A stretch of 64,000 bases of DNA. It comes from Sphingobacteriaceae bacterium DW12 (GTDB taxonomy: Bacteria; Bacteroidota; Bacteroidia; Sphingobacteriales; Sphingobacteriaceae). The stretch is taken from assembly GCA_000783305.1 (NCBI GenBank), contig JROE01000004.1, positions 372,001 to 436,000 on the forward strand. The letters are read 5' to 3'. Shown here in pieces: positions 18,028-52,556 of the stretch. Positions within the stretch are counted from its first letter, which is position 1; the number at the start of each line of letters is the position of its first letter. A program made the position numbers and the translations under genes. The notes beneath the pieces were generated by a model. That model had not been told where the DNA came from. It did no database searches and saw only the letters and a program-made list of their open reading frames with translations.

Positions 18028-18657
18028 TTAAATTTTTTGAGAAAGTACAGACAGCAGGAGCAAAAGAATACCTGCGTCTCTTCCTTTTAATTTGGCTTTT
18101 AGGGTATTATTGGCTAGATAGGCATGCTTACGGACTGTTTCTATTGAAATATCGAGCATCTGGGCAATTTCCTCATATTTCATTTTCTTAAATCTGCTGA
18201 GCTTAAATATCTTTTGTTGTTGACTCGGTAGGTTTTCGATTTCCTGTTCAAGTAAAGCATAATAGCGCTCCATATCGACCTTCGATTCGTCCTCTTGTTG
18301 TGGGATTTGGTTCAAATTACCTATGTCATCCAGCGATTCAAAAAGTACACTTTTCTTGGATTTTTCATTCAATAGATTATACACCCTATTGCGTGTGATG
18401 ATAAAGAGGTAGTTTTTAAAATTAGTAATCGTGTGCAGGTTTTCTCGGTCCGTCCATATCCTTAAAAATACCTCTTGCAGGACATCTTCGGTCTGCTGGA
18501 TATTCTCCAACAATTTAAACACATAATTCCCAAACGGCTTGTAATAATGAAGAAATAGGATTTCAAAGCTCTTATGATCGCCATTGCTAATAGCGACTAG
18601 TAAAGATTGTTCATTATGAAGGCTGGTTATTTTCAAATTAACATGAATGTTACACAA
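18028..18657 (-). CDS. ECF sigma-70 factor, locus B
   Basis: This ECF sigma factor has region 2 at about 25-95 (TEDVLQEVFLRIWTDRENL, NYLFIITRNRVYN). Region 4 is at about 140-190, with helix-turn-helix MKYEEIAQMLDISIETVRKHAY. A hydrophobic tail (GILLLLLSVLSQKI) follows. No in-frame ATG precedes the conserved N-terminus; the available starts are TTG codons at 18657 and 18636. The choice between them is open. It should control locus B, whose FecR gene is next. Confidence 0.9.
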   Translation of the reverse strand: MCNIHVNLKITSLHNEQSLLVAISNGDHKSFEILFLHYYKPFGNYVFKLLENIQQTEDVLQEVFLRIWTDRENLHTITNFKNYLFIITRNRVYNLLNEKSKKSVLFESLDDIGNLNQIPQQEDESKVDMERYYALLEQEIENLPSQQQKIFKLSRFKKMKYEEIAQMLDISIETVRKHAYLANNTLKAKLKGRDAGILLLLLSVLSQKI

Positions 18658-31185: not shown

Positions 31186-31779
31186 TTACATATTCTTCGT
31201 ATAATCGAGCAAGATGAGTATAAAAATACTCTGGTAGTACTCTGGAGGAAGGTGGGTCTTTAAATAGCGTAGACTTAAGCTAATTTGCTTTTTAACGGTC
31301 TCCGTCGATATCTCCAATTTTTCTGCAATTTCCTTGTAAGACAAATTATCCTTTCTACTCAGCAAGAAAACTTCCTTCATCCTAGGTGGCAGCTTATCGA
31401 TTTCTTGATTCACAACTTCTTCCAGTTCTTTGGAATCAACAAGGCCCGATATAACATACCCTTCATGTTCAAATTGAGAACTATATTGTGCAAGCACTTC
31501 TTCTGATTTTAGGATTTCCTTCAATCGCTTAAAAGCTCTATTGCGGGCAACGACTATGAGGTACGATTTTAAAGATTTGATTTTGACACCCTCAGCTCTG
31601 TTTTCCCATATACTAATGAAGGTATCCTGCAATATATCAGCCACCTCGTCATCATCGAATAAAATACGCTCGACGTATTTGAACAAACTATTCCAATACT
31701 TATCGTATAAAGTGACCAAGGCCAATGTATCGCCCAAGGCTAGCTTTGTCAAGATTTCTTGATCATCGTCCTTACACAT
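31186..31779 (-). CDS. ECF sigma-70 factor, locus C
   Basis: This ECF sigma factor has 197 residues. Region 2 is at about 18-85 (VADILQDTFISIWENRAEG, YLIVVARNRAFKRL). Region 4 is at about 130-180, with helix-turn-helix LSYKEIAEKLEISTETVKKQI. The hydrophobic C-terminal tail is YYQSIFILILLDYTKNM. It is the promoter-proximal gene of locus C and is divergent from the AraC gene at 32294, across a 514-nt spacer. Confidence 0.93.
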   Translation of the reverse strand: MCKDDDQEILTKLALGDTLALVTLYDKYWNSLFKYVERILFDDDEVADILQDTFISIWENRAEGVKIKSLKSYLIVVARNRAFKRLKEILKSEEVLAQYSSQFEHEGYVISGLVDSKELEEVVNQEIDKLPPRMKEVFLLSRKDNLSYKEIAEKLEISTETVKKQISLSLRYLKTHLPPEYYQSIFILILLDYTKNM

Positions 31780-32293: not shown

Positions 32294-33187
32294 ATGAAAC
32301 CAGAGCTTATTGTAGATGCCCCAATTGCGGGTCAAAAGAAAATCTGGATCAAAAAACTCAAAGTTCCATATTTTGATCACCCATTTCACTTTCACAATCT
32401 TTGTGAGCTTGTCTGGATACAAAGAGGATATGGAAAATTAATCATAGGTGACTATGTAGGTAGTTTTGACGAAGGAGAAGTAATCTTAAAGGCTGCAGAA
32501 CTCCCTCATCTTTGGAAGTCTGATGTGATTTTTCACCAACAGAATGCCAAGTTGTACACCCAAGCGACCAGCATTTATTTCCCTACAGACCTAATCCTTC
32601 ATATCACGGACGATGTCGACAATATCCGGTTATACCAAGACCTGAGCCTACGTGCTCAACGGGGCGTAAGATTTGTAGGGTCTACCCGACAAGGCGTCAT
32701 AAAACAGATTAGCAAAATCGTCAAAAGCAGGGGGTTAGCCCAAATGGGAATCTTCTTAAAAATAATAGACACCCTAGTCTACAGTCAAGATGGTACTTCG
32801 CTAGCGAGCCATAACTACCAAAGATCTACCGATGAGCACGACATCCAAAGGTTCAACATGGTATATCAACACCTTCTGCAAAATTTTCAACAAGCAATCA
32901 CACTGACAGAGGTGGCCGATATATGCAACATGTCTCCCAACGCCTTTTGTCGCTTTTTTAAGAAAAAAACCCAAAAGACCTTAATTCAATTTCTAAACGA
33001 GATTCGAATTGGACATGCCTGTAAGCTTTTACAGAATGGCGACTTGACCCTCAAAAGCATTTGCTACACTTGCGGTTACAATAATCCTGTCAGCTTTTTT
33101 GCGGCCTTCAAACAAGTCAAAGAGATGACTCCTACTGAATACCGTGAAGCCTTTAACAAAAAAAGTCTTAACGCGACCAATCTATAG
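32294..33187 (+). CDS. AraC-family transcriptional regulator (cupin plus HTH)
   Basis: This 297-residue regulator has an N-terminal cupin-type ligand pocket (about 15-95; PFHFHNLCELVWIQRGYGKLI). The C-terminal double helix-turn-helix AraC domain spans about 195-290 (TLTEVADICNMSPNAFCRFFKKK and SICYTCGYNNPVSFFAAFKQ). It is convergent with the Gfo/Idh gene at the end of locus D, and the two coding regions overlap by 20 nt. Locus D has no sigma/FecR pair, so this protein is the best local candidate for its regulator, sensing a sugar or its catabolite. That assignment is inference from position. Confidence 0.92.
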   Translation: MKPELIVDAPIAGQKKIWIKKLKVPYFDHPFHFHNLCELVWIQRGYGKLIIGDYVGSFDEGEVILKAAELPHLWKSDVIFHQQNAKLYTQATSIYFPTDLILHITDDVDNIRLYQDLSLRAQRGVRFVGSTRQGVIKQISKIVKSRGLAQMGIFLKIIDTLVYSQDGTSLASHNYQRSTDEHDIQRFNMVYQHLLQNFQQAITLTEVADICNMSPNAFCRFFKKKTQKTLIQFLNEIRIGHACKLLQNGDLTLKSICYTCGYNNPVSFFAAFKQVKEMTPTEYREAFNKKSLNATNL

Positions 33188-34244
33188 CGGGCACGACACT
33201 CTTGTACGCCGCCTCAACGCACAGCATCGTGCAGTAGCTATCCGCTACCGAATTATCCAATACGCAACCACTATCGTGCTTTACGCTCAGTAACTGAGCC
33301 ATACTACCTATGAATCCGTGCGGAAACCAAGATCCATTAATAGGCACAGTATTCCATTTTGGAGATGTCAAATCTGAAGCAATGACATATTCAAATCGAT
33401 CATCTTCGCCAGCTGGATAGTTCATATTGAGGCCCATGCGTACTTTTATAGCTCCCTTAGTTCCCTCTATCTTGAGATAAGACTCTTGATGATCCGTGCC
33501 GAAGTCATGCGTGTGATTGGTCACAATATTAGCGCGTACATAGTCTCCGTAGTCCATGATGATATTTGATCTCACGCTGTGCAACTCTTTCATCCGGGGG
33601 TGTTTAGTAGTTTTGGCAAAGATACCGTGAGGATTGCCGAGAATATGGCGAATCAAATCTATATAATGGATACTGTGATATAGGATCTCAACCCTTTCAG
33701 ACGAGTATAAAAACTCCCACACGTACCACGGTGTAAATACATTGAGGTGGATTTCGATATCGCAGACCTCGCCAATTATACCAGTAGCCAACAATTTTTT
33801 GGCCATGACGATATAGGGGGCATAGCGTAACTGAAAATTGACGGCTGCTACGAGCCTCTTTCGTTGGCATAATGATAGAATTGCCGCTGCTTCAGTAAGA
33901 TTTTCACCCATAGGTTTCTGCAGGAGTACGTGACAGTGGTCGGGTAATAATGCCAAGACATCTAAGATTGCTCCTCCTGGGACAGCAACGTCATAGACAA
34001 CATCTGTACCGTTCTTTTGTACCATCTCCGGTATAGATTCATATACTGTGGAAATATCAAATGCCAGGGCAAGCGCTACGGCTCTCTCGTGATCGAGATC
34101 AAAGAGTCCCTTCACGTCAAATCCAGCTATACGATATGCTGGAAGATGCGCATCTCGCACGATGCTTCCAGCCCCTATCACTACAATGGGGGCGGGTGTA
34201 TCCAACTGTGGAATTTCATAGTTTATAAAATTCATAATATCCAT
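33168..34244 (-). CDS. Gfo/Idh/MocA-family NAD(P)-dependent dehydrogenase, locus D
   Basis: This cytoplasmic oxidoreductase has 358 residues. The Rossmann motif is VVIGAGSIVRDAH (about 21-33), and the cofactor-binding acidic turn is FDLDHERA (about 48-55). The family's usual EKP is changed to QKPMG (Gln109-Lys110-Pro111), keeping the catalytic lysine candidate. The HSIHYIDLIRH motif, near 190, supplies the His/Asp of the active site. Family members oxidise sugars, inositols or sugar acids. With a lactonase-like gene and a RhaT-like permease in the same operon, oxidation of a 6-deoxyhexose is a reasonable guess. It is the last gene of locus D, 17 nt after the permease gene. Confidence 0.88.
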   Translation of the reverse strand: MDIMNFINYEIPQLDTPAPIVVIGAGSIVRDAHLPAYRIAGFDVKGLFDLDHERAVALALAFDISTVYESIPEMVQKNGTDVVYDVAVPGGAILDVLALLPDHCHVLLQKPMGENLTEAAAILSLCQRKRLVAAVNFQLRYAPYIVMAKKLLATGIIGEVCDIEIHLNVFTPWYVWEFLYSSERVEILYHSIHYIDLIRHILGNPHGIFAKTTKHPRMKELHSVRSNIIMDYGDYVRANIVTNHTHDFGTDHQESYLKIEGTKGAIKVRMGLNMNYPAGEDDRFEYVIASDLTSPKWNTVPINGSWFPHGFIGSMAQLLSVKHDSGCVLDNSVADSYCTMLCVEAAYKSVVPAIDWSR

Positions 34245-34261: not shown

Positions 34262-35317
34262 TTAATTCTTACCTAACGAATTACCATAAGTCAGTACCAA
34301 GACCGCAATAATCAAAACTGATACGGCTCCCAAAAGCAAGTTACGCGTTTTCGTGCTTGTACTTTTCCATTCTTTCAGCAGTAACCCAATCACACTGCTA
34401 CACAATACCAGCAGAATCATATGAATAGCCCAACTACTGAATTCAAATTTTCCCATGCGGGTATGGCCAAGACCATAAAAAAAGAATTGGGTATACCACA
34501 ATATCCCTGTTAATCCGGCAAATGCATAATTCAGACTCAAAATTATTGGTTTTCTGGTCCGATGAATATTTGGCAACATGATAAACTCTTTAAATGTTCG
34601 ATTCTTAACATGTAGATAAATACAGTAGATTGCTGTCGTAACAAAGGCTCCTGTATTGGAGAAGATGTAAATCACATTACCCTGAAAATCACCAGCACCA
34701 TATTGCTCGGCAATGACTGCTATTGGCCGGCCCTGATCTAACGCAAAACTAAAGAAAGCGGCCAATACTCCTGCAAGCAAGCATACGGGTAGACCTTTTG
34801 CTATATTGAAAGAATCTGACTCTTGCCTACCCTGAGCAAGATCCCTATCTTTAGCATATCCAGCCATACCACATAGCGTGATTCCTAATACACCTATCAG
34901 GATGCCTACTAATATCCAAACAAATCCATCTTGCGCGACGACAATCCGAAATTCGCCTTTGTATAAAGGGGGCAACAGTGTACCCAGCACGCAGGATATG
35001 CCGACTGAAATTGCATAGGTTAACGAAAAACCCACATAACGGATGGCAATCCCAAAAGCGGTCCCGCCGATACCATATACCGCACCTAATAAGAATGATC
35101 GCCACATAGCATCTGCAGGAGCTGCCGAAAGAACCTTCCCCAAGCTGGGAATTGTAAAATAAGCAACAACAAACGGTAAAATAAGCCAACATATGGCGGC
35201 CTGTACCAACCAATAAGTCTGCCACGACCACCCGCTTACTCCCTTTTGAGGCGTATAGCATAACGATGCAGACAATGCTCCCAATCCATGCAATAGTATA
35301 CCTGTGAATAGTCCCAT
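34262..35317 (-). CDS. RhaT-like L-rhamnose/proton symporter homologue, locus D
   Basis: This integral inner-membrane protein has 351 residues and about ten hydrophobic helices. It begins MGLFTGILLHGLGALSASL and carries the RhaT-type motifs WLILPFVVAYFTIP and GAVYGIGGTAFGIAIRYVGFSLTYA (within about 50-125). RhaT of enteric bacteria imports L-rhamnose with a proton. Here the neighbours are fucosidase-type hydrolases, so L-fucose or another 6-deoxyhexose is possible. It starts 5 nt after the amidohydrolase stop, which argues for strict co-expression. A minus-strand frame of 165 codons overlapping its first half is a shadow. Confidence 0.88.
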   Translation of the reverse strand: MGLFTGILLHGLGALSASLCYTPQKGVSGWSWQTYWLVQAAICWLILPFVVAYFTIPSLGKVLSAAPADAMWRSFLLGAVYGIGGTAFGIAIRYVGFSLTYAISVGISCVLGTLLPPLYKGEFRIVVAQDGFVWILVGILIGVLGITLCGMAGYAKDRDLAQGRQESDSFNIAKGLPVCLLAGVLAAFFSFALDQGRPIAVIAEQYGAGDFQGNVIYIFSNTGAFVTTAIYCIYLHVKNRTFKEFIMLPNIHRTRKPIILSLNYAFAGLTGILWYTQFFFYGLGHTRMGKFEFSSWAIHMILLVLCSSVIGLLLKEWKSTSTKTRNLLLGAVSVLIIAVLVLTYGNSLGKN

Positions 35318-35322
35318 AGCTG

Positions 35323-36180
35323 CTATATATTGTAAAATAAACTTGCATTTTTATACCAGATCGATAGCTGGTCCTCTCCTGATAGTTCTTCGGTGATAAT
35401 TTCTTTATAAATCTTCCAAGTATCTTTATAGGACAGCGCTAATAGTGATACGGGCCAGTCTCCTCCACACAGACATCGATCAACACCAAATAAATCAAGC
35501 ACATACATGATATACGGCTTGATATCTGACTTGGACCAAGTAGCCATCGCGGCAGCGGCGGTCCCCAGCCCAGATATCTTTGCATATATATTCTGTTGCC
35601 GGGCGGCGGCTTTCATCAACTCGCCCCATCGGCCAAATGCTGCACCTCGAGCTATTGGTGGTTGATTAAGATGATCCAACACCATCCGTAAGTCCGGCAG
35701 TCGATGAGCCACTTCCAATATCGTCTCTAGATGGTCAGTACTGGTACCCACTACGTCAAACGGAAGATTATACTCAACGAGTGTTTTCAAGCTCTCCAAT
35801 ACAGCCTCTTGTAATAACCACCTTGGGTCACTTTCATTGTGGATGAGATGCCGAACACCTTTGAAGTAGGGGTCGCTAACTAATCCGCTAGTTAACAAAT
35901 TATGTGTCTCCTCCGGCTCAACAAGGGGCAGCCACCCCACGACACCAATAACTTCCTTATACTCACGAGCTGTGCGCAACATACGCTCGGTATCGTCCAA
36001 AGTATTGGCCGCTTGCACCAGTATACAATCAGTGACTTCGGCCGCTTCCATCTCAGGCAACAATTCCTGAAAAGCGTAAGATTTTTTCAGTATACTGGTA
36101 TCGCCATCCAACCAACTGTAACGGCCGCGATCCAGGTCCCAAATATGCACATGAGTGTCTATTATCCTATTTGTCTTCAT
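35323..36180 (-). CDS. Amidohydrolase-2 / L-fuconolactonase-like hydrolase, locus D
   Basis: This cytoplasmic TIM-barrel hydrolase has 285 residues. The metal-binding HxH is His10/His12 in IDTHVHIWDL. A later His is in MVLDHLNQPP (His170), and the catalytic Asp lies in CGGDWPVS (Asp241). This set and the length fit amidohydrolase family 2 enzymes of the fucono/rhamnono/galactaro-lactonase group. The probable reaction is opening of a sugar-acid lactone made by the Gfo/Idh dehydrogenase. Its ATG overlaps the stop of the preceding solute-binding-like gene as ATGA (36177-36180), a sign of translational coupling. Confidence 0.87.
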   Translation of the reverse strand: MKTNRIIDTHVHIWDLDRGRYSWLDGDTSILKKSYAFQELLPEMEAAEVTDCILVQAANTLDDTERMLRTAREYKEVIGVVGWLPLVEPEETHNLLTSGLVSDPYFKGVRHLIHNESDPRWLLQEAVLESLKTLVEYNLPFDVVGTSTDHLETILEVAHRLPDLRMVLDHLNQPPIARGAAFGRWGELMKAAARQQNIYAKISGLGTAAAAMATWSKSDIKPYIMYVLDLFGVDRCLCGGDWPVSLLALSYKDTWKIYKEIITEELSGEDQLSIWYKNASLFYNI

Positions 36181-37322
36181 TTCTTTCGATAAATGGTATT
36201 CATATGTTCAATAACCAAACGTGGGTCACCTCCTTTTTGTAAATAGTTGTGCAATGGTATACCTGCATTGTCTTGAAAGGTTAGATATCCCTTATACCTA
36301 GGTCTGGTGTATGCTCTATCTAATGATGGTAGCGTACGGCTAAAATATTGGCGTGTGTAACTATTCACTCCGGCATCCTCCCAAGCTGTACGATGTCCGG
36401 GCTGTCCTCCATTATCCACGTACAAGGACGACTGAATAAACGGAGAAGCTACCCATTGGACAAATTGAAGAGCCTCATTTGTGTGTGTACAATACGCAGA
36501 CACTGCCAAGCCAGTACCTCCTAAAGTAGTCCTAAGTCGATCCTTGTATGCACCAAACTGGATAACATCTGTATAGTCCAATAGATGCTCGGCATACCCA
36601 CGCCTTGAATAATTGGAATATCCATAGGCAAATGGGCAATACCAATAATCGTCGCTACTACTCATAATCTCTGCCACTTGTATCGGATTGTAACTGAAAA
36701 AACGATTATCAATCAGACTCCAGAGTGAACGCATCGTATCCAGGACTTCTACACCTGTCTCGATATCAATAACTTCGTCAGCATCACTAAAGGGCTCTTT
36801 GCCGACGGCAATACAAAAAGTATAAAAATTCATCAACAGGTCAATCGGTATGGCTGGTGCGGCTACCTTACCGGCTCTCGCCATGGTCAGCAACTCATCC
36901 CAGTCCATGGGCACGGCTAATCCATATTGGGTCAATAAATCTTTCCGATAACTAGCTACGGGAGTAGCCGCGTCTATAGCTAATGCCCACTGATGGCCTC
37001 CATAATGATAACTCAAATGGGAGTTACCTACTGAATTGTCCGCTTGGTCTTGTAAAAATTTAGGACTCAAACACTTATCCAAAGGTAATACACAATTCCC
37101 CGCGGCGGCATACCCTACCCAGGGATGATCGATAATCAAAAGATCATATTCCTTTACCAATTCGTGGATTGGATAGTCAGCAAATTGTTGCAAGGTCCTC
37201 TTGTCCCAAGTAATCGACACATTTGTCTCTTGTTCACAAAAGCGTTGGGCGGCGGCTACCAAAGGCGTATACCCTCGACTGTGATCCCATGTGATGCCTT
37301 TCAGCTTAATCAGTGATGACAT
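36177..37322 (-). CDS. Solute-binding-protein-fold protein without signal peptide, locus D
   Basis: This 381-residue protein resembles family 1 ABC substrate-binding proteins: two alpha/beta lobes, ITWDHSRGYTPLVAAAQRF at the start, YDLLIIDHPWVG near 60-71, and a C-terminal KRLR-like helical lobe. It has no signal peptide or lipobox. The start at 37322 cannot be extended, because only five codons precede it before an in-frame stop at 37338-37340. No ABC permease or ATPase gene is present in the window. It should therefore be cytoplasmic and may bind, sense or process an intermediate of the CoA-dependent route. It is 2 nt from the MaoC gene and overlaps the lactonase-like gene. Confidence 0.82.
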   Translation of the reverse strand: MSSLIKLKGITWDHSRGYTPLVAAAQRFCEQETNVSITWDKRTLQQFADYPIHELVKEYDLLIIDHPWVGYAAAGNCVLPLDKCLSPKFLQDQADNSVGNSHLSYHYGGHQWALAIDAATPVASYRKDLLTQYGLAVPMDWDELLTMARAGKVAAPAIPIDLLMNFYTFCIAVGKEPFSDADEVIDIETGVEVLDTMRSLWSLIDNRFFSYNPIQVAEIMSSSDDYWYCPFAYGYSNYSRRGYAEHLLDYTDVIQFGAYKDRLRTTLGGTGLAVSAYCTHTNEALQFVQWVASPFIQSSLYVDNGGQPGHRTAWEDAGVNSYTRQYFSRTLPSLDRAYTRPRYKGYLTFQDNAGIPLHNYLQKGGDPRLVIEHMNTIYRKK

Positions 37323-37324
37323 AT

Positions 37325-37768
37325 TTATTTTCCCTTTTTATTTACCAACAATAGGTGGTCACAAACCATCACTACGTCCCCCTGTTGATTGTGTACAGTT
37401 ATAGATTCGACAACTATTCCTTTTTCTGGCAACTTGTATGCGCGCTTCTCACGAATCGTAATCTGCACCGTAATGGTATCGCCAATATAAACTGGTCTGA
37501 CAAATCTCAAATGCTCATAACCATAGGTAAATGCTTGTTCATTGATAAGGCCTGCAGTCATCCCTATTGCTACACTAAATATCAAAGTACCGTGTGCCAT
37601 CCGTTGCCCAAACGGCTGCTTCTTGCACCATTCGGCATCCATGTGATGCGGAAAGAAATCACCTGTCTGACCGGCATGTATGACAATATCGGCTTCCGTA
37701 ATCGTTCTTCCGCCAGTAAGACGGGTATCTTGTTCGATATAATTTTCGAAATAAATATGTTGGAGCAT
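37325..37768 (-). CDS. MaoC-type (R)-specific hydratase, catalytic subunit candidate, locus D
   Basis: This single-hotdog protein of 147 residues is of the MaoC/(R)-enoyl-CoA hydratase family. The catalytic dyad is present: Asp37 and His42 in [10 protein letters not shown], followed by the substrate-loop [28 protein letters not shown] is the usual second half of the fold. Itaconyl-CoA and mesaconyl-CoA hydratases belong to this broad group and are often encoded beside family III CoA-transferases. It is encoded 6 nt after a paralogue with a damaged dyad. A heteromer is therefore plausible, with this chain supplying catalysis. The substrate is unknown. Confidence 0.88.
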
Positions 37769-37774
37769 AATTGT

Positions 37775-38281
37775 TTATCTAAGGTACGAAGCTGGATCTT
37801 TATATTTAACCGTTTGGAGGTGTTCGCAGTACAAGACCAACTCCCCGTCGTTCTTGAATACTTCATAGCTAGCCGTATACAGGCCCATATTTTCGTATTT
37901 TGGAGATTTGCTAAGGTCTGTTTTTATAGCATATAGGGTATCTCCGATGAATACGGGTTTGATAAACCGCAGCTTATCGTAACCATAGCTAAATGCATGT
38001 ACGCAATTGGTGGCTACGAGTCCCAGTCCGACACTGAATACAAAGGCTCCCGCCACCAGCCGCTTTCCAAATAGACCTTCTTGCGTAGCAAATATTTCAT
38101 CTGCGACATAAGGGTGCATATCCTGCACCAATGCATTGAACTGCATACTCTCCCCTTCGCTGATGGTTCTTCGAATGGATCGGATCCGCTTTCCGATTTC
38201 AATATCTTCATAAAACCAATTTTCGGCGTTCCAAACGGCAATATTACGATGTAATCGGGAATCGGGATTAGGATTTTTCAT
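37775..38281 (-). CDS. MaoC-type hotdog protein lacking the catalytic His, locus D
   Basis: This 168-residue hotdog protein is related to its neighbour at 37325. The expected dyad region reads [10 protein letters not shown]: Asp54 is kept, but the position five residues later is Val59 where the hydratase motif (D-W-H-P-L-H) has His. The loop [20 protein letters not shown] and the half-fold [19 protein letters not shown] are intact. The fold is thus preserved while the active site looks incomplete. That suits a structural or substrate-binding partner in a heteromeric hydratase. The alternative is activity on a different thioester. It lies between the CoA-transferases and the catalytic paralogue. 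Confidence 0.85.
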
Positions 38282-38300: not shown

Positions 38301-39443
38301 TTACAAACCAAACTCTATTACAATACTATCTGTGTGCTCTCCTAAAGCTGGAGCACCCTTCGGAGACTTCAAAAGCTCTCCATCTACACGAATGGGACAT
38401 CTGGTCGTACGGACAAGCTTGTCGCCACATTTGACTACTTGTTCCATATCGAGAGCTACATACCCTTCCTCTTGTCTCAACTGGTCATAGTCTAGCACCG
38501 CTGCACACCATATATCTGCTGATTCGAGCATCGCCAACCATTCTTTAGTCGTTTTTCCAAGTAGATGGGTTTTCAAAATCGCTTTTATCTCATCTCTCAA
38601 GGAATACCATTTCTGCTGATCGGTATAGGCAGACAACGGTGGACAATCCAATAAAACTGCTAGCACTGGAATGGGGGCCATCGCGATAGCAATATAGGAG
38701 TCCATTGTTTTATAAATACCGTAGGGTGCGGCAATATATGCATGGGCGCTATTGATTTGACCTCGCTCAGGGAGTTGGTTCCCGTCGTTGAAATAGGTGG
38801 TCAATACTTCAAATTGAAAATCTAATAGACTCTCGAGCATACTTACAGAAACGTATGCTCCAGTATTGGTGATAAAACGCTCCCAAATAGCCGTGAGGAT
38901 GCCCTGTACTAAATGTGTGCCCGCTAGGATATCGGCGACCGCTACTCCCATGGGAATAGGTGCTGCTCCGCGGTTACCGCTTAGATGGGTCAATCCAGAA
39001 ATGGCCTGTAACAACAAATCCTGTCCAGGTAGACCCCTCCACTCACCGACCTCACCATAGCCACTGATAGAAGCATAGATTAAGGTGGGGTTAATCTTTT
39101 TGATCTCTTCATAGCTCAACCCCAATCGCTCCATTACCCCGGGTCTGAAATTATGGATCAACACGTCTGCTTTCGCGATTAATTTTTTAATCTTTGCTAG
39201 CTGCTCAATTGATTTTATATCTGCTTCAAAGCTCTCCTTATTCCGATTGATTGCATGAAAAATAGTCGATTCGCCGTCAATATTCGTTTCAGAGACATAT
39301 AGCGAACGGCATATATCACCTACCCCTGGTCGCTCGACTTTGATGACTCTTGCCCCCATATCGGCAAGGCGTAAACTAGCTGAGGGTGCGGATAAAAACT
39401 GGCTAAAGTCCAGCACGAGATAACCTGTTAATAATTTCATCAT
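38301..39443 (-). CDS. Family III (CaiB/BaiF) CoA-transferase, second of a pair, locus D
   Basis: This 380-residue CoA-transferase moves CoA from an acyl-CoA to a carboxylic acid. It opens with VLDFSQFLSAPSASLRLADMG, the family nucleotide/CoA loop. It also carries AINRNKESF, NFRPGVMERLGLSYEE and PGQDLLLQAISGLT. The catalytic Asp aligns as Asp171 (VAVADILAG), matching Asp169 of formyl-CoA transferase. The start ATG overlaps the stop of the upstream paralogue as ATGA (39440-39443). The two proteins may form a heteromer like those known for benzylsuccinate or malate CoA-transferases. The substrate is unknown. Confidence 0.93.
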   Translation of the reverse strand: MMKLLTGYLVLDFSQFLSAPSASLRLADMGARVIKVERPGVGDICRSLYVSETNIDGESTIFHAINRNKESFEADIKSIEQLAKIKKLIAKADVLIHNFRPGVMERLGLSYEEIKKINPTLIYASISGYGEVGEWRGLPGQDLLLQAISGLTHLSGNRGAAPIPMGVAVADILAGTHLVQGILTAIWERFITNTGAYVSVSMLESLLDFQFEVLTTYFNDGNQLPERGQINSAHAYIAAPYGIYKTMDSYIAIAMAPIPVLAVLLDCPPLSAYTDQQKWYSLRDEIKAILKTHLLGKTTKEWLAMLESADIWCAAVLDYDQLRQEEGYVALDMEQVVKCGDKLVRTTRCPIRVDGELLKSPKGAPALGEHTDSIVIEFGL

Positions 39444-40576
39444 GATGCAAGCTCGCTTTTAATACACTGGGTATCAGCACCGAGAACTGGTGCTGGTGTC
39501 GTAGATAAAAAATATTGTCCATTGATCCGAATAGGGCACCGTGTGGTCTTTATCTTTCTATCGGCCAACTGTATCCATTGTTCCATTTTCAAATCGGTAT
39601 AACCCTTCATCTCCATTAACTGTCGCCAATTCATTACCTGAGCTATCCAGAGATCCAACGGACGGCCCTTTTCCAACCAATAAGCGGTGGTATGTTGGAG
39701 CAAATGCTGTTGGAGAATGGCCTTGATTTCATCTCTTTTTGTGAAAGCATCTTGCTCGTCAAAACTTTCTAGCATTACACAGGCAATGGCCTCATTGAGT
39801 TTGCTAAGTGGCATCATGGCCACGGCAAGGTATCCATCCTTAGTTTGATAGATGCCATAGGGTGCACTTAATAGCGCATGTGCATTATTGGCGGCCGATC
39901 GCTTAGGTAGCGCACCGGAGTGGAAGTAAGTCGTAAAGAACTCAAACTGAAAATCAATCAATGACTCCAGCAAACTAAGTTGGAGCAAGGAACCTTTTCC
40001 TGTTCTCTTCCTTCGAATGAGGGCTGCTAAAATGGCCTGTACAGCCTGATTGCCGCATAGATAATCTCCCATGGCCAAGCCGAATGGCAAAAAATCATCC
40101 TCCCCATTTCCAGATGTATGAGCGAGTCCAGAAAGCGACTGTACGAGCAAATCCTGTCCGGGCTTATCTTTCCAGGGTCCCTGGTTTCCATAGCCTGTAA
40201 TAGAGGTATAGACAATAGCCGAATTGAGCTGTCGAACAGCCTCATATCCCAGCCCCTTTCTATCCATTACCCCTGGTCGAAAGTTTTCAATGATGACATC
40301 AGCTTTTGCAATGAGCTTATTCAACCATAGTCGATCATTAGCGTCGTCAAAATCCGTAGTAAAGCTCTCTTTATTCCGATTGATCGTGTGAAACAAAAGA
40401 GAATCATCTCCAACCCACATATCTTTAATCGCCAACCGCCGTCCTGCTTCGCCTCCTAAAGGCCGTTCAATCTTAATCACTCTGGCGCCCAAATCTGCTA
40501 ACCGTAGGCCTGCACATGGCCCAGACAGATATTGGCTAAATTCCAGGACCGTAATCCCTTTCAATGGTAGCTGCAT
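39440..40576 (-). CDS. Family III (CaiB/BaiF) CoA-transferase, first of a pair, locus D
   Basis: This protein has 378 residues and is collinear with the next gene product. It carries VLEFSQYLSGPCAGLRLADLG, TINRNKESF, NFRPGVMDRKGLGYEA and PGQDLLVQSLSGLAHTSG. The catalytic aspartate is Asp171 (LAMGDYLCG). Both paralogues keep the nucleophile, so both may be active, either as partners or on different acids. It starts 12 nt after the stop of the GH95-like gene and so joins the exported hydrolase genes to the cytoplasmic block. No CoA ligase or acyl-CoA dehydrogenase is encoded nearby. Confidence 0.93.
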   Translation of the reverse strand: MQLPLKGITVLEFSQYLSGPCAGLRLADLGARVIKIERPLGGEAGRRLAIKDMWVGDDSLLFHTINRNKESFTTDFDDANDRLWLNKLIAKADVIIENFRPGVMDRKGLGYEAVRQLNSAIVYTSITGYGNQGPWKDKPGQDLLVQSLSGLAHTSGNGEDDFLPFGLAMGDYLCGNQAVQAILAALIRRKRTGKGSLLQLSLLESLIDFQFEFFTTYFHSGALPKRSAANNAHALLSAPYGIYQTKDGYLAVAMMPLSKLNEAIACVMLESFDEQDAFTKRDEIKAILQQHLLQHTTAYWLEKGRPLDLWIAQVMNWRQLMEMKGYTDLKMEQWIQLADRKIKTTRCPIRINGQYFLSTTPAPVLGADTQCIKSELAS

Positions 40577-40588
40577 ATATTTAAGTAT

Positions 40589-43069
40589 TTAAAGTGACAG
40601 TAGTATTTGTTCACCCGGCTTGGTTTTAATCTCTATCCACTCGCCCGAAACCTTACTTTTGACACCATTGCGCTTCATATTGACCTCAGCGTTCCATGGG
40701 GAAAGTAATCTTAGTAACCCACCTTGCTCACTCTTGATTTCGACTTGCTGTACCACTCCATGCTGTTGGGTTGCACTGATCAAGAAAGCGCCTACTGCAC
40801 GTAAATCTTTGAATGAAGCGTCTTTCTCTTTGGGCCAGTTAGGAAATAGACGAAGTGTGCCATTGTAGCTCTGAAGTAAGCACTCATTGATGACTGCCGG
40901 CAGGCCAAAGTTCTCAAACCAAATCCCCATTTTACCCATATAGTCAAACTTGGTTCCGTCCGAATAACGACCGTGTACCTGTAAGACCTTATCGGTAGCT
41001 GTCCCATTGGGCAATAGCGAGTAGTTGATATGGCGCTTGAATTGCTCTATATCCAACATACCAATACGGGCGGCCTGTAGATTAGCAAACACGAGATCAT
41101 TTCCACCTTCATTTTGTTGATTTCGAAAAGTATTCTGAAGTATCTGTAAGGTATCTATGTGGGAATCTAAGCCATGTTGCTCTCCCGGAAACACGGTACT
41201 TAGAGGCAAGGGCACATTATATACGACCTGATCGTGTTCTCCTGGAACTGACACAAAGACCTCCCCGTATTTTGAAGATATTGTGGTCGGATATGCTGGA
41301 TAATGACGCTGTATCTCTTCGATAGATTTTAAAGTCTGCCTATCGACTTTCTCTGTCCCAAGAATCTTTGTCATCTTGATAAAAGCTTGAAAGAGAAATT
41401 TGGTTAATGCTAAATCGATGTTAACATCATAGTTGTATTCAAATCCTGGACGCAATCCGTATAACTCTGGGGGTACAGTTGGAAAGATGTGGTATTTGTC
41501 ATCTTTCCAACGATCACCACCTTTAGCATTTGGACGTGTCATATAAGCTACCATAAATTCTACGGCTTCCTTAATAGGACCATATGCTCTTTCTTTCAAA
41601 AAATCTCGATCGCCGGAATATAAATAATGCCACCATAATCCCTGTACGGTCCAAGGGGTTTCACTAATCTCCCATCCCCAATCTGGTACGGGATATGGAT
41701 TCATGGTCATATTGACCGGATAAGCGGAATGTGGGAAATAAGCCCCTGGCAGCTGATAATAATCCTTTGCCCATATGCGGGCCACGTCCATCAATGATTC
41801 CACCAAGCTTACATAAGGCAGGTTTTTTTCTAAATGATTACTAGAAAATGTCATCCAAAAGGGCTGTTGCGTATTATAATTCATATGATAGTCCCCGTGC
41901 CATGCTGTCCCGATATCATTATAGCTCCAATTGGCAAATAACCCAGGCGCTGTAATACCTTCTTTTGCTGCACAATTGAAAAAATACAGATTACGATACC
42001 AAATTTGTTCTAAAAAGCTATCGCTCAAATAGACACCGGATTTTTCCCAATATGAACGCCACACTTTATCAGCATTGGCTTTTGCACGATCAAATTCGCT
42101 CCAAGAAGATGAGTTCCCCCTCTTTTGAAGCACTGCAGTGCTTAAGCCTTCCATCAAACTCACACTTACTACAAATTCTTGATTATCTAGAAGGGCCCCC
42201 TCTAATATATGCATCTGCTCTTCGTTTCCATCCCAATTTATCCTTGATTTTTTTTTTAGAGATGTGCTACTATGTAAAGTCAAACTAAAGGCCTTATCCT
42301 GCGGATGCCCTATTTTCAAATTGTATATGTCCGGTTCTTGATAAGGAAGTATCTGTTTGAATGCCATTACGCCTTTATCCAACTCTTCCAAGGTGGTGAA
42401 TGCGGGTATATCCTTTGGCGTGGATGAATCTGGCATGATTCGGATGCGATTAAAAAAACTTTTCACTTTCTTTCCGTTTTTATCCATGAGCCGCATCCAT
42501 ATCTTGTCCTCCTTCATTTCGGTAAATAACTGTAGCACTACCTCTTCCTTATCAGCGGTTAGGAATTTTACATCACATATCCCATTTGCGATATCTAGAT
42601 GGTGACCAATAAGCTCGGCATGCCTTCGATCGAATCCCAGAACAATAGATCCTGCGGGAAAGGGTCTCGGATAGGGCTTGTTATAATTTTCGGCAGTCAT
42701 CTTGTTATAATCACGGTACCACGGATCATCGGTAAGATTTTTGAAAGTACTTGGGATTTGATCTACTTTGTCAAATACTTGCTGGAAAGTGCCAATTTTT
42801 TCTTTATTGTGCTCGGCAATCCGAATATCCCAAACATTGTTGTGCCCAAAATACAACACCACGGCATCTGGTCTTGTAGTGACAACCACTCCCAGTCCTC
42901 CATTGCCGAGCAGGGCACCCTCAAAAAAATCGGGTGCAGGTTTAGGATAATCGATTGCATGTTTTTGGGCTTGCTCGTATGACCGAGAGTGTTGTTGGGC
43001 TTGAATGTAGGCTGCAAATAACAGTAAGAAGCCAAATGTAGCTAAGGGCAGTTTAACATTTATTCTCAT
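40589..43069 (-). CDS. GH95-like exported hydrolase (alpha-L-fucosidase type), locus D
   Basis: This 826-residue protein has a signal peptide (TFGFLLLFAAYIQAQ). The N-terminal beta-domain begins FFEGALLGNGGLGVVV, the GH95-style 'iGNGrLGamv' opening. An (alpha/alpha)6 barrel follows. The active-site strand reads WHGDYHMNYNTQQPFW and keeps Asn397 and Asn399, equivalent to the base-activating pair known in the GH95 fucosidase AfcA. A late FENFGLPAVINECLLQSYNG segment and a C-terminal beta-sandwich complete the GH95 layout. It is more divergent than typical fucosidases, so L-galactose or another 6-deoxy sugar is possible. It follows a long hairpin after susD. Confidence 0.8.
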   Translation of the reverse strand: MRINVKLPLATFGFLLLFAAYIQAQQHSRSYEQAQKHAIDYPKPAPDFFEGALLGNGGLGVVVTTRPDAVVLYFGHNNVWDIRIAEHNKEKIGTFQQVFDKVDQIPSTFKNLTDDPWYRDYNKMTAENYNKPYPRPFPAGSIVLGFDRRHAELIGHHLDIANGICDVKFLTADKEEVVLQLFTEMKEDKIWMRLMDKNGKKVKSFFNRIRIMPDSSTPKDIPAFTTLEELDKGVMAFKQILPYQEPDIYNLKIGHPQDKAFSLTLHSSTSLKKKSRINWDGNEEQMHILEGALLDNQEFVVSVSLMEGLSTAVLQKRGNSSSWSEFDRAKANADKVWRSYWEKSGVYLSDSFLEQIWYRNLYFFNCAAKEGITAPGLFANWSYNDIGTAWHGDYHMNYNTQQPFWMTFSSNHLEKNLPYVSLVESLMDVARIWAKDYYQLPGAYFPHSAYPVNMTMNPYPVPDWGWEISETPWTVQGLWWHYLYSGDRDFLKERAYGPIKEAVEFMVAYMTRPNAKGGDRWKDDKYHIFPTVPPELYGLRPGFEYNYDVNIDLALTKFLFQAFIKMTKILGTEKVDRQTLKSIEEIQRHYPAYPTTISSKYGEVFVSVPGEHDQVVYNVPLPLSTVFPGEQHGLDSHIDTLQILQNTFRNQQNEGGNDLVFANLQAARIGMLDIEQFKRHINYSLLPNGTATDKVLQVHGRYSDGTKFDYMGKMGIWFENFGLPAVINECLLQSYNGTLRLFPNWPKEKDASFKDLRAVGAFLISATQQHGVVQQVEIKSEQGGLLRLLSPWNAEVNMKRNGVKSKVSGEWIEIKTKPGEQILLSL

Positions 43070-43220: not shown

Positions 43221-44741
43221 CTAATTATAATCTTCATTTTGAACTAATTGCTTGTTGCGATCCAGTTCGGACTGTGCAAAAGGCAACACATTGTTTTTTT
43301 CACCAAATTTCAGTGGTGCTCCACCTGGATTCTTTAGTGGCGCAAGTGTACTTTCCATAAGATTACGACGCTTGAGATCATAATAACGATGTCCTTCCAA
43401 TGCCAATTCAATCCTTCTTTCATGTAGAATGAAGTCTCGCAGCTTCTCTTTGGTATTGTACACCACCTCGTCTACTGGCGGCATATCTACACTTGTCCGT
43501 TGTCTAATCTCGTTCAAAGCGTCGTATATACTTTGGTCTGGGCCGCTCGCCTCATTCTTGGCTTCGGCATACATCAGCAGTACATCAGCGTATCGGAGAT
43601 GCACGATGTTCTGATCAGTTAGCGGTGTCTTACTTCTATCAAATGGCAACTTGGACAAATCGATGTATTTTTTCTGTACATAGGTTGTCAACAAGGGATC
43701 AGTTTCTTTAAACACCGATCCATCTGGATTGATATAGTCCTCGGTGGGCACTTTTATCGTAAATTTCAGGCGGGGATCCCGATTATTATAAGGATTGGCT
43801 AAATCATAACCCGACCCAGGTTCGTTAATACGCTTACCATTAGTCATTTCATAAGCATCTACCAGATTCTGGTAAGGAGCGATACCACCATACCATGCGA
43901 CTTCAACCAATACTCCCTCACCTCCTTGCGGATTGTTGGGAGCTAGATATTTGGTCGAAAATATGATTTCTGGATTATTCTGCTGTGTGGACGTCAAGAA
44001 CAGATTTGCATATCCTCCTTGATAAACCTGAAATTTACCACCGGTAATGATGTCATTGGAGGTACTGGCTGCCAAAGGCCAATTTTGCTGAAAGAGATAG
44101 ACCTTAGCCTTCAATGCCTGCGCACTACCCTTTACAGCATGGCCAGCATAAGCTACATCGGGTAAATTAGTAATGGCATAGTCCAATTCTTCATGTACGA
44201 ATGTCAATACGTCTTCTTTGGAGCTCTTTGCCACCTTGGCATCGTCAACAGTGACGGGTGCCGTTTTGTAGAGGATTACACCTCCGTAAGCCTGCACCAA
44301 ATCGAAATAGATCATCGCTCGAATGAATCGTACCTCCGCTTTGTACTTTGTTTTTTGAACCTCAGAGCTAGGAGCTTTGTCAATATTGTCCAGAAAAAAA
44401 TTGCAGCCTGCGATGGCTTCGTATGGTGTATTATAAAATGTTCCTGTGATATTAGTAGAATTGACTATACCCTGTGTCAAGTCGCCGAACCCGTAGAATG
44501 AGTGTCTATCAAGGGCATTGTCTGAGTAGGTATCCAACCATAGCTTGCCATGGCCGTAAAATCCATTCTGCAGTCGTCTATACACTCCTGCCAGACCCAT
44601 TTGTGCGTCTGCATCACTCTTCCAAAAGGTTTCACTGGCAATTGCTGCAGTGGGATTTTTATCTAGAAAGTCTTTTCTACAGGAGGTAAGCATACCGATC
44701 ATTATGATGATAAAGGATATGCTGGTGTGTTTTGCTTTCAT
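43221..44741 (-). CDS. SusD/RagB glycan-binding lipoprotein (classic type), locus D
   Basis: This 506-residue lipoprotein, counted from the ATG at 44741, has lipobox MLTSC followed by RKDFLDKNPTAAI. That start gives a clean signal peptide; an upstream ATG adds 13 residues. The core helix EVRFIRAMIYFDLVQAYGGVIL and the C-terminal HERRIELALEGHRYYDLKRR identify the RagB/SusD family (PF07980). The end reads NVLPFAQSELDRN, the standard closing motif. It partners the SusC encoded 54 nt upstream and should bind a fucosylated oligosaccharide, judging from the enzymes around it. Confidence 0.94.
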   Translation of the reverse strand: MKAKHTSISFIIIMIGMLTSCRKDFLDKNPTAAIASETFWKSDADAQMGLAGVYRRLQNGFYGHGKLWLDTYSDNALDRHSFYGFGDLTQGIVNSTNITGTFYNTPYEAIAGCNFFLDNIDKAPSSEVQKTKYKAEVRFIRAMIYFDLVQAYGGVILYKTAPVTVDDAKVAKSSKEDVLTFVHEELDYAITNLPDVAYAGHAVKGSAQALKAKVYLFQQNWPLAASTSNDIITGGKFQVYQGGYANLFLTSTQQNNPEIIFSTKYLAPNNPQGGEGVLVEVAWYGGIAPYQNLVDAYEMTNGKRINEPGSGYDLANPYNNRDPRLKFTIKVPTEDYINPDGSVFKETDPLLTTYVQKKYIDLSKLPFDRSKTPLTDQNIVHLRYADVLLMYAEAKNEASGPDQSIYDALNEIRQRTSVDMPPVDEVVYNTKEKLRDFILHERRIELALEGHRYYDLKRRNLMESTLAPLKNPGGAPLKFGEKNNVLPFAQSELDRNKQLVQNEDYN

Positions 44742-44795
44742 TATTCCTATTTTATATATTAAATACAATACTGTAATCAATTCAGCGGGTTCAGA

Positions 44796-47700
44796 TTAAT
44801 ACTTAATCTTGATTCCGGCGGTATACATTCTCAATTGTGGAAACTGTGCAAACCTCCCCGAACCTGACCTTTCTGGATCGTTTCCTTCATACTTGGTCCA
44901 CGTAATCAGATTGTCACCAGAAACATAAACCGTAATTCCTTTGGCGGCTACGCGTTGGGTTATGGACTCCGGAAAAGTGTAGGATAAATACAGATTTTTT
45001 AACCGCATATAGGATGCATCTTGTAAAAAATACGTAGATGGATAACCCGATACCCCTGCATAACCAGTCATGTAAACAGCAGGTACTGTATTGCTCGGAT
45101 TGGTCGGTGTCCATGCATCTAAAAATTTGGTTGGCGGTGCAGATCCCTGCATAAAAGGTTCATAGCCCCACTGGCTAACCTGCACTTTTTGTCCCTGCAC
45201 TCCTTGAAAGAATGCACTCAGATTAAATCCTTTCCAATCCGCATATAGGTTGAATGAATACGTATAGTCGGGAAATCGGCTAATCCTTATGCGATCCTCT
45301 GGACCTATCGTACCATTACCATCGGTATCTCGCATTTTGAGATCCCCTGGTTTGAGCGTACCGGAGTTGGGTTGCTTGGGTGAGCTATCAATCTCTTGTT
45401 GACTCTGGAAGATGCCAATCCAATCGTACAGATAAAAATTATCATATGGCTGCCCTACTTCAATGGTACCTACTGTCTCTGCCAATACTTTGGTCACTTT
45501 ATTGCGATAGCGATTGAATATTGCATTGACGCCGTAATTGAAATCTCCAATCTGATTCTGGTGACGTAGCTCTATTTCAATTCCTTTGTTGACCATGGCA
45601 CCAGCATTTACAATCGGTGCGGCCAAGCCAAGACTGGCAGGCTGGTCGGCCCGTACAGCCAAAATATCAGTTGTGTTTTTATAATACCAGTCAACAGTGG
45701 CTCCAAATAAGCCTCTAAAAATATCCACATCTAACCCGAAATCTGTAATCGCTGTTTTCTCCCAACGCAAATCCTTTTGTGTCAAACGAGTCAGTAATAC
45801 TCCGGATTCCAATGTGGAGAAAGGGTAGGTCGTATTAGAAAGAATATCTTGATAAGGATAGTAATCAGGATTTCCAGATCTGGTTATCTCTTGATTACCT
45901 AAGGCGCCGTATGATGCCCGCAATTTCAGATTATCCAACCAAGCAACATTATTTTTTACAAAGTCCTCTTCAGAAATCCGCCAGGCTGCAGACCCTCCGC
46001 CAAATGTACCCCATCTATATTTCGGATCTACACGCGAAGTACCGTCATGGCGAATATTACCTTCCAATATGTACTTTCCCTTATAATCGTATGTGGCTCG
46101 TCCAAATAATGACTGGAGCCCCCATTCAAAGGAATTGCCGCTAAGGGACTGATCTTTAGGCGAACTCCCATCTAATTCCATAATGGTATTGTTCGGAAAA
46201 TCATACCGATTGCCACCTATATTGGTACTTCTATTGTCTTGTTGCTCATAGCCCCCAAGAATCCCGATATTATGAGATTCATCAAAAGTCTTATTGTAAT
46301 TGAGCGTCGTATAGAACGTCTTGGTGATATTTCGGGCTGAGGTCTGTCTAAGCCCGAAGTATGATGGGTTTCCATTACCAACCTGCGGATATTCGCCACT
46401 GGCATCAGGTTGATAGGCAAACGATGGGCTGCCATATTGGCGCTGCCTATAATCTTGATTAAAAAAAGTAACTGCAGCTTTTGAGTGCCATTTCAGACCG
46501 GACATGATATCCACATCTACGAAAGCTTGCGCATTAACGTTGTAGTTTTTGGTCAATTGGGCACCCGTATTGTATACTTCTTCTACTGTCCGATTGGTTC
46601 CTCCGCTGGAAACATAGTCTCGAGCAGCTACACGACCACTGCCATCCGGAAGATAGGGTCTAAAAGTCGGCGCCGAAGCGTAGGCCAATAACAATAAATC
46701 ATCATTGGTCAACCAAGGTGCTTTAAAATCCTGATACGACATGTTAACATTGGTCCCGACTTTGACTCTTTTATGCACTTGCGTCGAATAATCCACCAAT
46801 CCATTATATCTCTTGTACAGGTATCCTTTGGTAATGCTATTTTGATCCAAATAATTGAAGGATATATTATGCGTGCTTTTATCACTGCCTCCCAAGAAGG
46901 CGAGATTATGATTCTGCATTGGTCCTTTGTCCAATACGTAATCCAACCAGTCAAAGTTGGGATATTGATCACTATTGGGGTTGTTTTTATAAGCATCGAT
47001 CTGTGCCTGTGTATATTGGGCGGGCTGCCCGCTTCGGGCTCGAGCAGCATTATACATCTCCATGTAGGTGACCGAATTGGTTATCAAATCAGGATATTTA
47101 GTGGCTTCACTCGTACCCCAGTTGCCATTATACTCGATGATACTGGTTCCTGCTTTTCCTTTTTTCGTGGTCACTAAGATTACTCCATTGGCCGCTCTAG
47201 CTCCATAGATAGATGCCGAGGCGGCATCCTTTAGTACGGTCACACTTTCAATATCTTGAGGGGAAAGGTTGGACATGGTCCCTACGATACCGTCAACCAA
47301 AACAAGCGGATTAGGTGATGCTCCATTGGAGCCAAATCCTCGTATCCGCATACTCCCATTGTCCCGACCAGGCTCACCCGTAGGCTGTACCACATCCAAC
47401 CCAGCAATTCGACCTTGTAAAAGGTTTTGAACATTTGGCACTGGCCGTTCGGTAATGGTCTTTCCAGAAACGCTGGCTACCGACCCTGATAGATTAATTT
47501 TCTTTTGTGTGGCATATCCCACGACGACAACTTCATCGATCTGTTCGGCGTCTTCCAGTAAGGTGACGGTGTAAGAACTGGAACTACCCACCACCACCTC
47601 CTGTGACTTGAAGCCTACAGAGGTAACAATCAAGACGTCATTCTGGGTCGCCTGGAGACTGAACCGTCCCTGGCCATCGGTTTTTACAGCTTGATTGGTC

Positions 47701-47915
47701 CCTTTTATCTGCACAGTGACTCCTGGCAGATTAACCCCCTGTTCATTCTTGATGACCCCTGTAATCGGAACCTGCTGAGAAACATGGAGATGTGTAGCCT
47801 GTACGGGTAGGTACAATGCGATTAAAAAGAAAAGCATCAATAGCTGATTCACATTTCTCTTTAGTAATCCCCATATGCTATATGCATTGGGCATTATAGG
47901 TTTAAATAGATACAT
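44796..47915 (-). CDS. SusC/RagA TonB-linked transporter without STN domain, locus D
   Basis: This 1039-residue importer is the shortest of the five SusC proteins. After the signal segment (LLMLFFLIALYLPVQA) it goes straight into the carboxypeptidase-like domain (about 50-125, ITGVIKNEQGVNLPGVTVQIKG), with no STN domain. The TonB-box-like DEVVVVGYATQKK leads to the plug, with SIYGARAANGVILVTTKKG. Lack of STN agrees with the absence of sigma/FecR genes in locus D. A 204-nt gap with a terminator-like hairpin separates it from GH29, so it may have its own promoter. Confidence 0.94.
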   Translation of the reverse strand: MYLFKPIMPNAYSIWGLLKRNVNQLLMLFFLIALYLPVQATHLHVSQQVPITGVIKNEQGVNLPGVTVQIKGTNQAVKTDGQGRFSLQATQNDVLIVTSVGFKSQEVVVGSSSSYTVTLLEDAEQIDEVVVVGYATQKKINLSGSVASVSGKTITERPVPNVQNLLQGRIAGLDVVQPTGEPGRDNGSMRIRGFGSNGASPNPLVLVDGIVGTMSNLSPQDIESVTVLKDAASASIYGARAANGVILVTTKKGKAGTSIIEYNGNWGTSEATKYPDLITNSVTYMEMYNAARARSGQPAQYTQAQIDAYKNNPNSDQYPNFDWLDYVLDKGPMQNHNLAFLGGSDKSTHNISFNYLDQNSITKGYLYKRYNGLVDYSTQVHKRVKVGTNVNMSYQDFKAPWLTNDDLLLLAYASAPTFRPYLPDGSGRVAARDYVSSGGTNRTVEEVYNTGAQLTKNYNVNAQAFVDVDIMSGLKWHSKAAVTFFNQDYRQRQYGSPSFAYQPDASGEYPQVGNGNPSYFGLRQTSARNITKTFYTTLNYNKTFDESHNIGILGGYEQQDNRSTNIGGNRYDFPNNTIMELDGSSPKDQSLSGNSFEWGLQSLFGRATYDYKGKYILEGNIRHDGTSRVDPKYRWGTFGGGSAAWRISEEDFVKNNVAWLDNLKLRASYGALGNQEITRSGNPDYYPYQDILSNTTYPFSTLESGVLLTRLTQKDLRWEKTAITDFGLDVDIFRGLFGATVDWYYKNTTDILAVRADQPASLGLAAPIVNAGAMVNKGIEIELRHQNQIGDFNYGVNAIFNRYRNKVTKVLAETVGTIEVGQPYDNFYLYDWIGIFQSQQEIDSSPKQPNSGTLKPGDLKMRDTDGNGTIGPEDRIRISRFPDYTYSFNLYADWKGFNLSAFFQGVQGQKVQVSQWGYEPFMQGSAPPTKFLDAWTPTNPSNTVPAVYMTGYAGVSGYPSTYFLQDASYMRLKNLYLSYTFPESITQRVAAKGITVYVSGDNLITWTKYEGNDPERSGSGRFAQFPQLRMYTAGIKIKY

Positions 47916-52144: not shown

Positions 52145-52556
52145 AATTTGTCGGATTATCAATATCACAAACTTACGGGTCTAAAAAGAAGGTTAAGTAA
52201 TCTAATCTACCATATTAATAAAGGATTTTACCCTACCATTACTTGTCGTAGCCACCATTTCTTTATGGAATTTGGTCGCAATCGGCATTGAAATCGCCTC
52301 CAAACCATCGCATTCAACGACAGATACGGGCACTTAGCCGATACCAGTGATTGATATGGGGCTCCGACATCGCCTTCTCTCGGGTAGATATTAAAGAATT
52401 GTTTTATTCATCAGTGTTGACATAGACATTTGATGCTATTCATCTCAAGATATATAGTGAGTGGTTGAATAAAATCAATCTCAAATTTATTTTATTTTTC
52501 TACTAAGGTTGCTTTCTATTTACCGTTTCTATCTTGTAGACCATTATAATATTATT
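52145..52556. other. Divergent spacer between loci D and E
   Basis: These 412 nt must contain the promoters of locus D (minus) and of the FecR gene (plus). I found no sigma gene, or remnant of one, where the FecR partner is expected. No convincing hairpin is present, and the right part is AT-rich. Confidence 0.4.

Follow-up and report, generated by a model that had tools for sequence, protein, structure and literature searches.

The SBPc gene (36177-37322, minus strand), carried by the 64,000-nucleotide stretch of DNA analysed here (the window), encodes a leaderless protein of 381 aa with a carbohydrate-type solute-binding fold. The protein is best read as a cytosolic descendant of the ABC sugar-binding proteins that works with a CoA-transferase/hydratase module in the breakdown of sugar acids by binding a ligand; we assign this reading a probability of roughly 55%. 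Comparisons over several phyla give strong support to a role in the cytosol and outside transport, and we infer the ligand class, the order of the steps and the action of SBPc at the CoA step as a carrier or holding protein. Its place beside CoA-transferases in sugar-breakdown operons suggests a function in sugar-acid metabolism, so far undescribed, and not in transport.

The SBPc gene and its predicted fold

The SBPc frame starts with an ATG at 37322 and is complete at its stop codon (36177-36179, minus strand). Upstream of the ATG there are only five codons (KGKIN) before an in-frame stop, so the frame cannot be extended, as the initial annotation had stated. The flanking genes were also confirmed as described there: the ATG lies 2 nt past the stop codon of the hydratase gene MaoC1, and the other end of SBPc overlaps a lactonase-like amidohydrolase gene by ATGA.

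The Pfam SBP_bac_1 profile matches SBPc above its cut-off (E 2.8e-12), and none of the NCBIfam models fits it. The AlphaFold model, computed from an input of 27 sequences, reached a pLDDT of 93.2 and a pTM of 0.90. When this model was compared with the PDB by Foldseek, the top 50 matches listed were all proteins that bind ligands, for the most part components of ABC sugar importers, with MalE3 (E 1.9e-20) and a sulfoquinovosyl-binding protein (TM 0.84) as the best, both only 15-17% identical to SBPc. Sugar-binding proteins are the closest structures, the solute-binding fold assigned in the initial annotation holds, and SBPc is predicted from model and profile to be a bilobed protein of the carbohydrate SBP type. 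The complete fold is shared with ABC carbohydrate SBPs such as MalE3, SmoF and the trehalose/maltose-binding protein (TM 0.81-0.84), from which SBPc differs in having no export signal, other gene neighbours and an identity of about 13-19% to the nearest solved sugar-binding proteins. The GGW tryptophan of the trehalose/maltose-binding protein is aligned with GGT in SBPc.

The family is about 50-60% identical between phyla, and its invariant polar residues are H14, R16, R42, D65, H66, D117, Y235, N237, Q307, R340 and R342. Many of the invariant residues would sit on cleft-lining loops, in a placement derived from the known fold topology and not from coordinates, and the putative ligand-site loops appear to be intact. 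The strict conservation of His, Arg and Asp in the cleft loops, together with the identity across phyla, also suits the main rival to a ligand-binding partner, namely that SBPc is itself an enzyme in which the fold has acquired an active site for a single reaction, with a sugar acid, its lactone or its CoA ester as the substrate. The cytosolic use of a fold of the periplasmic-binding-protein type has precedents in MqnA, Thi5/NMT1, HisG and porphobilinogen deaminase. However, enzymes of the MqnA/Thi5 type are absent from the top 50 PDB matches of SBPc, no enzyme is found among these listed matches, and a conserved binding site suffices to account for the invariant residues. An enzymatic SBPc is considered rather unlikely.

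Export leader and transporter partners across the family

Scanning genome contigs with SBPc returned at least 535 related stretches, the best 80 of which were taken as loci. Their hosts belong to the Bacteroidota, Bacillota, Chloroflexota and the gamma- and alphaproteobacteria, with one Acidobacteria MAG, and further alphaproteobacterial homologues are found in plasmid records. A match to SBPc is present in 54 of the 201 genomes of the window's family and in 19 of the 395 genomes sampled across its phylum. What had been taken for an oddity confined to one permease-less locus is actually a family of wide distribution, and the operon itself encodes a sugar symporter.

The non-hydrophobic N-terminus reported earlier for SBPc is common to its relatives. 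A hydropathy scan, used in place of a trained signal predictor, covered 117 SBPc homologues, a few of which represent the same genome twice, and detected a hydrophobic segment within residues 1-30 in none of them; on the same scale, nine of nine secreted SBPs of the same loci score 2.0-2.7. A Sec signal peptide, lipoprotein leader or lipobox is absent in all 117, Bacillota included. In 93 of the 117 the frame is closed at most 25 codons before the conserved GITW motif, and L109 would gain a hydrophobic stretch solely from a start codon placed far upstream. The leaderless start is more than chance, because it is conserved in 117/117 homologues. In vivo, SBPc would presumably be located in the cytosol.

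The host genome (5.3 Mb, 99.97% complete) contains SBPc as its sole SBP_bac_1 protein and only two CoA_transf_3 proteins, both encoded in the SBPc operon. Its five ABC permease domains of PF00528 are distributed over two phosphate-type (PstSCAB-like) operons and one methionine-type (NlpA/MetQ) system. The genome-wide search, which covered PF00528 (BPD_transp_1) as distinct from the ribose-type BPD_transp_2 family, revealed no ABC permease of the sugar type, and within the PF00528 scope SBPc has no cognate ABC permease and ATPase. The earlier claim that the 64 kb hold no permease or ATPase stands for ABC components and fails for RhaT: two genes downstream of SBPc lies the gene of a RhaT family sugar/H+ symporter (34262-35317, minus strand; Pfam PF06379, 1.1e-59; NCBIfam RhaT, 9.6e-96), which is the likely route of sugar entry. 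Elsewhere in the same genome, on contig 74, the protein encoded at L128:2780-4387 matches the C-terminal domain of fucose isomerase only (PF02952) and is no clear L-fucose isomerase; more sugar genes follow it.

If SBPc served an ABC importer after all and left the cytosol by a route not yet recognised, this would accord with the fold family and with the permeases that lie nearby in some Bacillota, Chloroflexota and Alphaproteobacteria. Yet the host genome is without a sugar-type BPD_transp_1 permease, and complete ABC importers near the cassette usually come with an SBP of their own that has a leader (lipoproteins in the case of Paenibacillus), a pattern that leaves aside the Chloroflexota locus L080. 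The SBPc proteins of Gram-positive bacteria, where a lipobox would be required, are leaderless too, and export by such a route is very improbable. The filing of SBPc as an ABC binding protein was ruled out by two features, the lack of a leader and the lack of a cognate permease/ATPase. A host genome that retains no sugar-type ABC partner might also carry SBPc as the decaying remnant of a past transporter operon, but the frames are intact, many residues are invariant across phyla and the co-occurrence with CaiB is near-perfect in 201 genomes. Gene decay is contradicted by this conservation and deserves practically no credence.

Public records label SBPc as an "extracellular solute-binding protein" or a "carbohydrate ABC transporter substrate-binding protein", no curated family in the family libraries searched describes it, and the open-access literature yielded no account of a cytosolic SBP in connection with a CoA-transferase, MaoC, an aldonate or fucose. 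As a consequence of the current annotation, genomes appear to own ABC importers that they lack, and a widespread catabolic module stays hidden.

The CoA-transferase and hydratase cassette

The catalytic motif of MaoC hydratases consists of an Asp and a His. In the window, MaoC1 (37325-37768, minus strand) is a MaoC/PaaZ-type hydratase (Pfam 3.8e-22; best PDB match 4ffu, 8.7e-54) that is 56% identical to its Roseibium orthologue and has the D-x4-H motif (GDFFPHHMD). The second MaoC domain protein, MaoC2 (37775-38281, minus strand; Pfam 9e-13), has Val in place of the catalytic His (QDMHPYVAD; alignment to 4ffu), and the same Val is found in the Roseibium copy, which is 74% identical. The CaiB pair adjoins an acyl-CoA hydratase in which MaoC1 keeps both Asp and His and MaoC2 is without the His. 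MaoC2 is likely the structural partner of MaoC1, and its loss of the His, together with the Roseibium copy that carries the same change, suggests an obligate MaoC1/MaoC2 heterodimer. The two family III CoA-transferases, CaiB2 (38301-39443, minus strand; Pfam 1.3e-91; PDB YfdE, 1.4e-50) and CaiB1 (39440-40576, minus strand; Pfam 4.8e-90), are encoded by genes with an ATGA overlap. Aligned to YfdE and a formyl-CoA transferase, CaiB2 keeps the family Asp, which we take to be the catalytic Asp of family III CoA-transferases.

Among the best 80 of the at least 535 loci, a CaiB/BaiF CoA-transferase is present in 76, at a distance of no more than 200 nt in 69 and often with a 4-nt overlap. MaoC is found in 65 of these 80 loci and a crotonase in 8 others, which amounts to a hydratase in 73; Gfo/Idh occurs in 62 and RhaT in 30. 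In the 201 family genomes, SBPc and CaiB occur together in 53, SBPc alone in one (38% identity), CaiB alone in one (37% identity) and neither in 146, so that the CoA-transferase query, too, matches 54 of the 201 (Fisher p 2e-46 for the co-occurrence, uncorrected for kinship). Two CaiB genes are present in 53/53 genomes with SBPc and CaiB. In four Hymenobacter loci (L081:9327-11705, L085:9226-11646, L099:9265-11721 and L107:9269-11650) CaiB1 and CaiB2 are fused in one frame of about 800 aa, which suggests a heteromeric CoA-transferase. Judged by open-frame lengths, no SBPc-CaiB gene fusion occurs in the 54 + 19 genomes. An AlphaFold model of the in-frame read-through SBPc-CaiB chain of L086, from which CaiB dimers were left out, kept both folds with no confident mutual placement (pTM 0.53).

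Two CaiB-less loci, Microvirga L118:10007-11179 and Bacteroidota L139:8793-9926, have a UxuA-type sugar-acid dehydratase directly adjoining and an SDR near; the Microvirga locus additionally contains an SMP-30 lactonase, and L139 is the SBPc-only genome among the 201. The remaining CaiB-less SBPc loci are mostly interrupted by contig ends. The UxuA-type context shows that SBPc does not strictly depend on CaiB, a point against its reading as a partner of the CoA module. From the CaiB co-occurrence and these UxuA-type loci, the constant theme appears to be a sugar-acid step, usually through CoA.

The transporters round the cassette interchange (RhaT, CUT1-type ABC and ribose-type ABC) and the SBPc-CaiB pair stays. 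The regulators vary as well, with AraC, IclR, LacI, MarR and GntR-like types among the SBPc loci; the AraC-type regulator of the window (32294-33187, plus strand; Pfam 5.7e-21) is convergent with the operon. Binding-protein folds are commonly used for sensing, and with its ligand-site loops seemingly intact SBPc might be a cytosolic sensor that reports a sugar acid to a regulator or an enzyme. A sensor fits poorly because the regulators change from locus to locus and SBPc, which stays with CaiB, does not; in addition, Pfam detects no DNA-binding or output domain in its 381 aa, and we hold a sensory role to be improbable. Of the new cytosolic roles suggested in the initial annotation, carrier or enzyme subunit fits the tie to CaiB and the hydratase.

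SBP2 (FRIAVRKFGPFES...) is a second leaderless SBP family, encoded in 27 of the best 80 of the at least 535 loci (for example L031:15550-16797 and L035:15451-16683). SBP2 and the amidohydrolase lactonase largely alternate in the cassettes: the two are found together in only one of these 80 loci, and there the amidohydrolase gene lies far off on the reverse strand. Their substitution for each other in most cassettes is a further point in favour of an enzymatic SBPc. In the tree, SBPc and SBP2 each form one group with full support, and SBP2 is placed among secreted proteins and not with SBPc, although this placement is less well supported and involves long branches. The topology hints that the leader was lost twice, separately, in the two families. 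More broadly, and tentatively, SBPc and SBP2 may both stem from carbohydrate ABC binding proteins that were drawn into the cytosol, probably on two occasions, to act as dedicated subunits, as carriers or as enzymes where sugar acids are processed through CoA thioesters. The fold would then have found a novel use, in a branch of sugar catabolism that is so far undescribed and is present in several phyla.

A proposed route for an L-fucose-like sugar

The substrate is probably an L-fucose-like sugar, on account of GH95, GH29, RhaT, the fuconolactonase-like amidohydrolase and the L-fuconate dehydratase and rhamnose mutarotase annotations of Alphaproteobacteria. A GH95-family glycoside hydrolase gene (40589-43069, minus strand; Pfam GH95 catalytic domain, 1.8e-30) lies upstream of the cassette as a possible sugar source. 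It is preceded on the same strand by the outer-membrane glycan uptake pair SusD (43221-44780) and SusC (44796-47915), named from sequence features and position, by a gene of the GH29 alpha-L-fucosidase family (48120-49835; Pfam 1.1e-24) and by a second GH95 gene (49853-52168; Pfam 5.4e-49). The COG3618-like Amidohydrolase_2 protein (35323-36180, minus strand; Pfam 1e-35; PDB 4dlf/4do7, 3.8e-23) resembles L-fucono-1,5-lactonase, its score against the NCBIfam model (3.3e-44, 151.6 bits) being far under the cut-off of 400. Further downstream lies a Gfo/Idh/MocA family oxidoreductase gene (33168-34244, minus strand; Pfam 2.8e-12).

In the proposed route, the GH95/GH29 fucosidases and SusCD would release and import the L-fucose-like sugar, and RhaT would bring it into the cytosol. 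There it would be oxidised to a lactone by Gfo/Idh or another dehydrogenase, and the amidohydrolase would open the lactone to the aldonic acid. The cleft of SBPc might hold this acid or a close intermediate (or ester), the CaiB1/CaiB2 pair would transfer CoA to the sugar acid, and MaoC1/MaoC2 would hydrate or dehydrate the CoA ester, with the CoA perhaps handed on by analogy with the CaiB/CaiD carnitine system. It may be speculated that a holding protein is of use because aldonyl-CoA esters could cyclise to lactones.

In the carnitine-crotonobetaine system, CaiB and CaiD act while CoA is moved between the acid substrate and the dehydrated product. Both systems have a family III CoA-transferase adjoining a crotonase or MaoC hydratase, whereas the SBPc module is sugar-catabolic, usually has two CoA-transferase genes and includes an SBP-fold partner; we know of no such partner in the Cai system. 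In Roseibium, Labrenzia, Martelella and Shinella, the SBPc cassette also stands beside genes annotated as L-fuconate dehydratase and L-rhamnose mutarotase, a likeness to the oxidative L-fucose pathway of Alphaproteobacteria. To our knowledge, that pathway runs without a CoA-transferase and without a cytosolic SBP. In Martelella (L034:14779-22225), the genes adjoining the cassette are annotated as CoA transferase, enoyl-CoA hydratase, SDR, aldose epimerase and ribose-type ABC genes. If the proposed role is true, a fold of transport proteins has come to serve as a partner in metabolism, and the CoA-dependent breakdown of an L-fucose-like sugar acid can be tested directly in ordinary soil and marine bacteria, including Sinorhizobium meliloti. 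The L-fucose binding protein of S. meliloti is SMc02774 (PMC3454389); it was set aside as proof of the substrate, the link being a possible likeness in gene order to the L119-type operon.

The SusC and SusD of the window, used as queries, match related loci. Judged from the translations alone, sigma-factor-like and anti-sigma-like genes stand beside SusC-like genes at 18028-18657, 31186-31779, 62970-63560 and other places in the window, and the gene content suggests that the window is packed with separate glycan utilisation loci.
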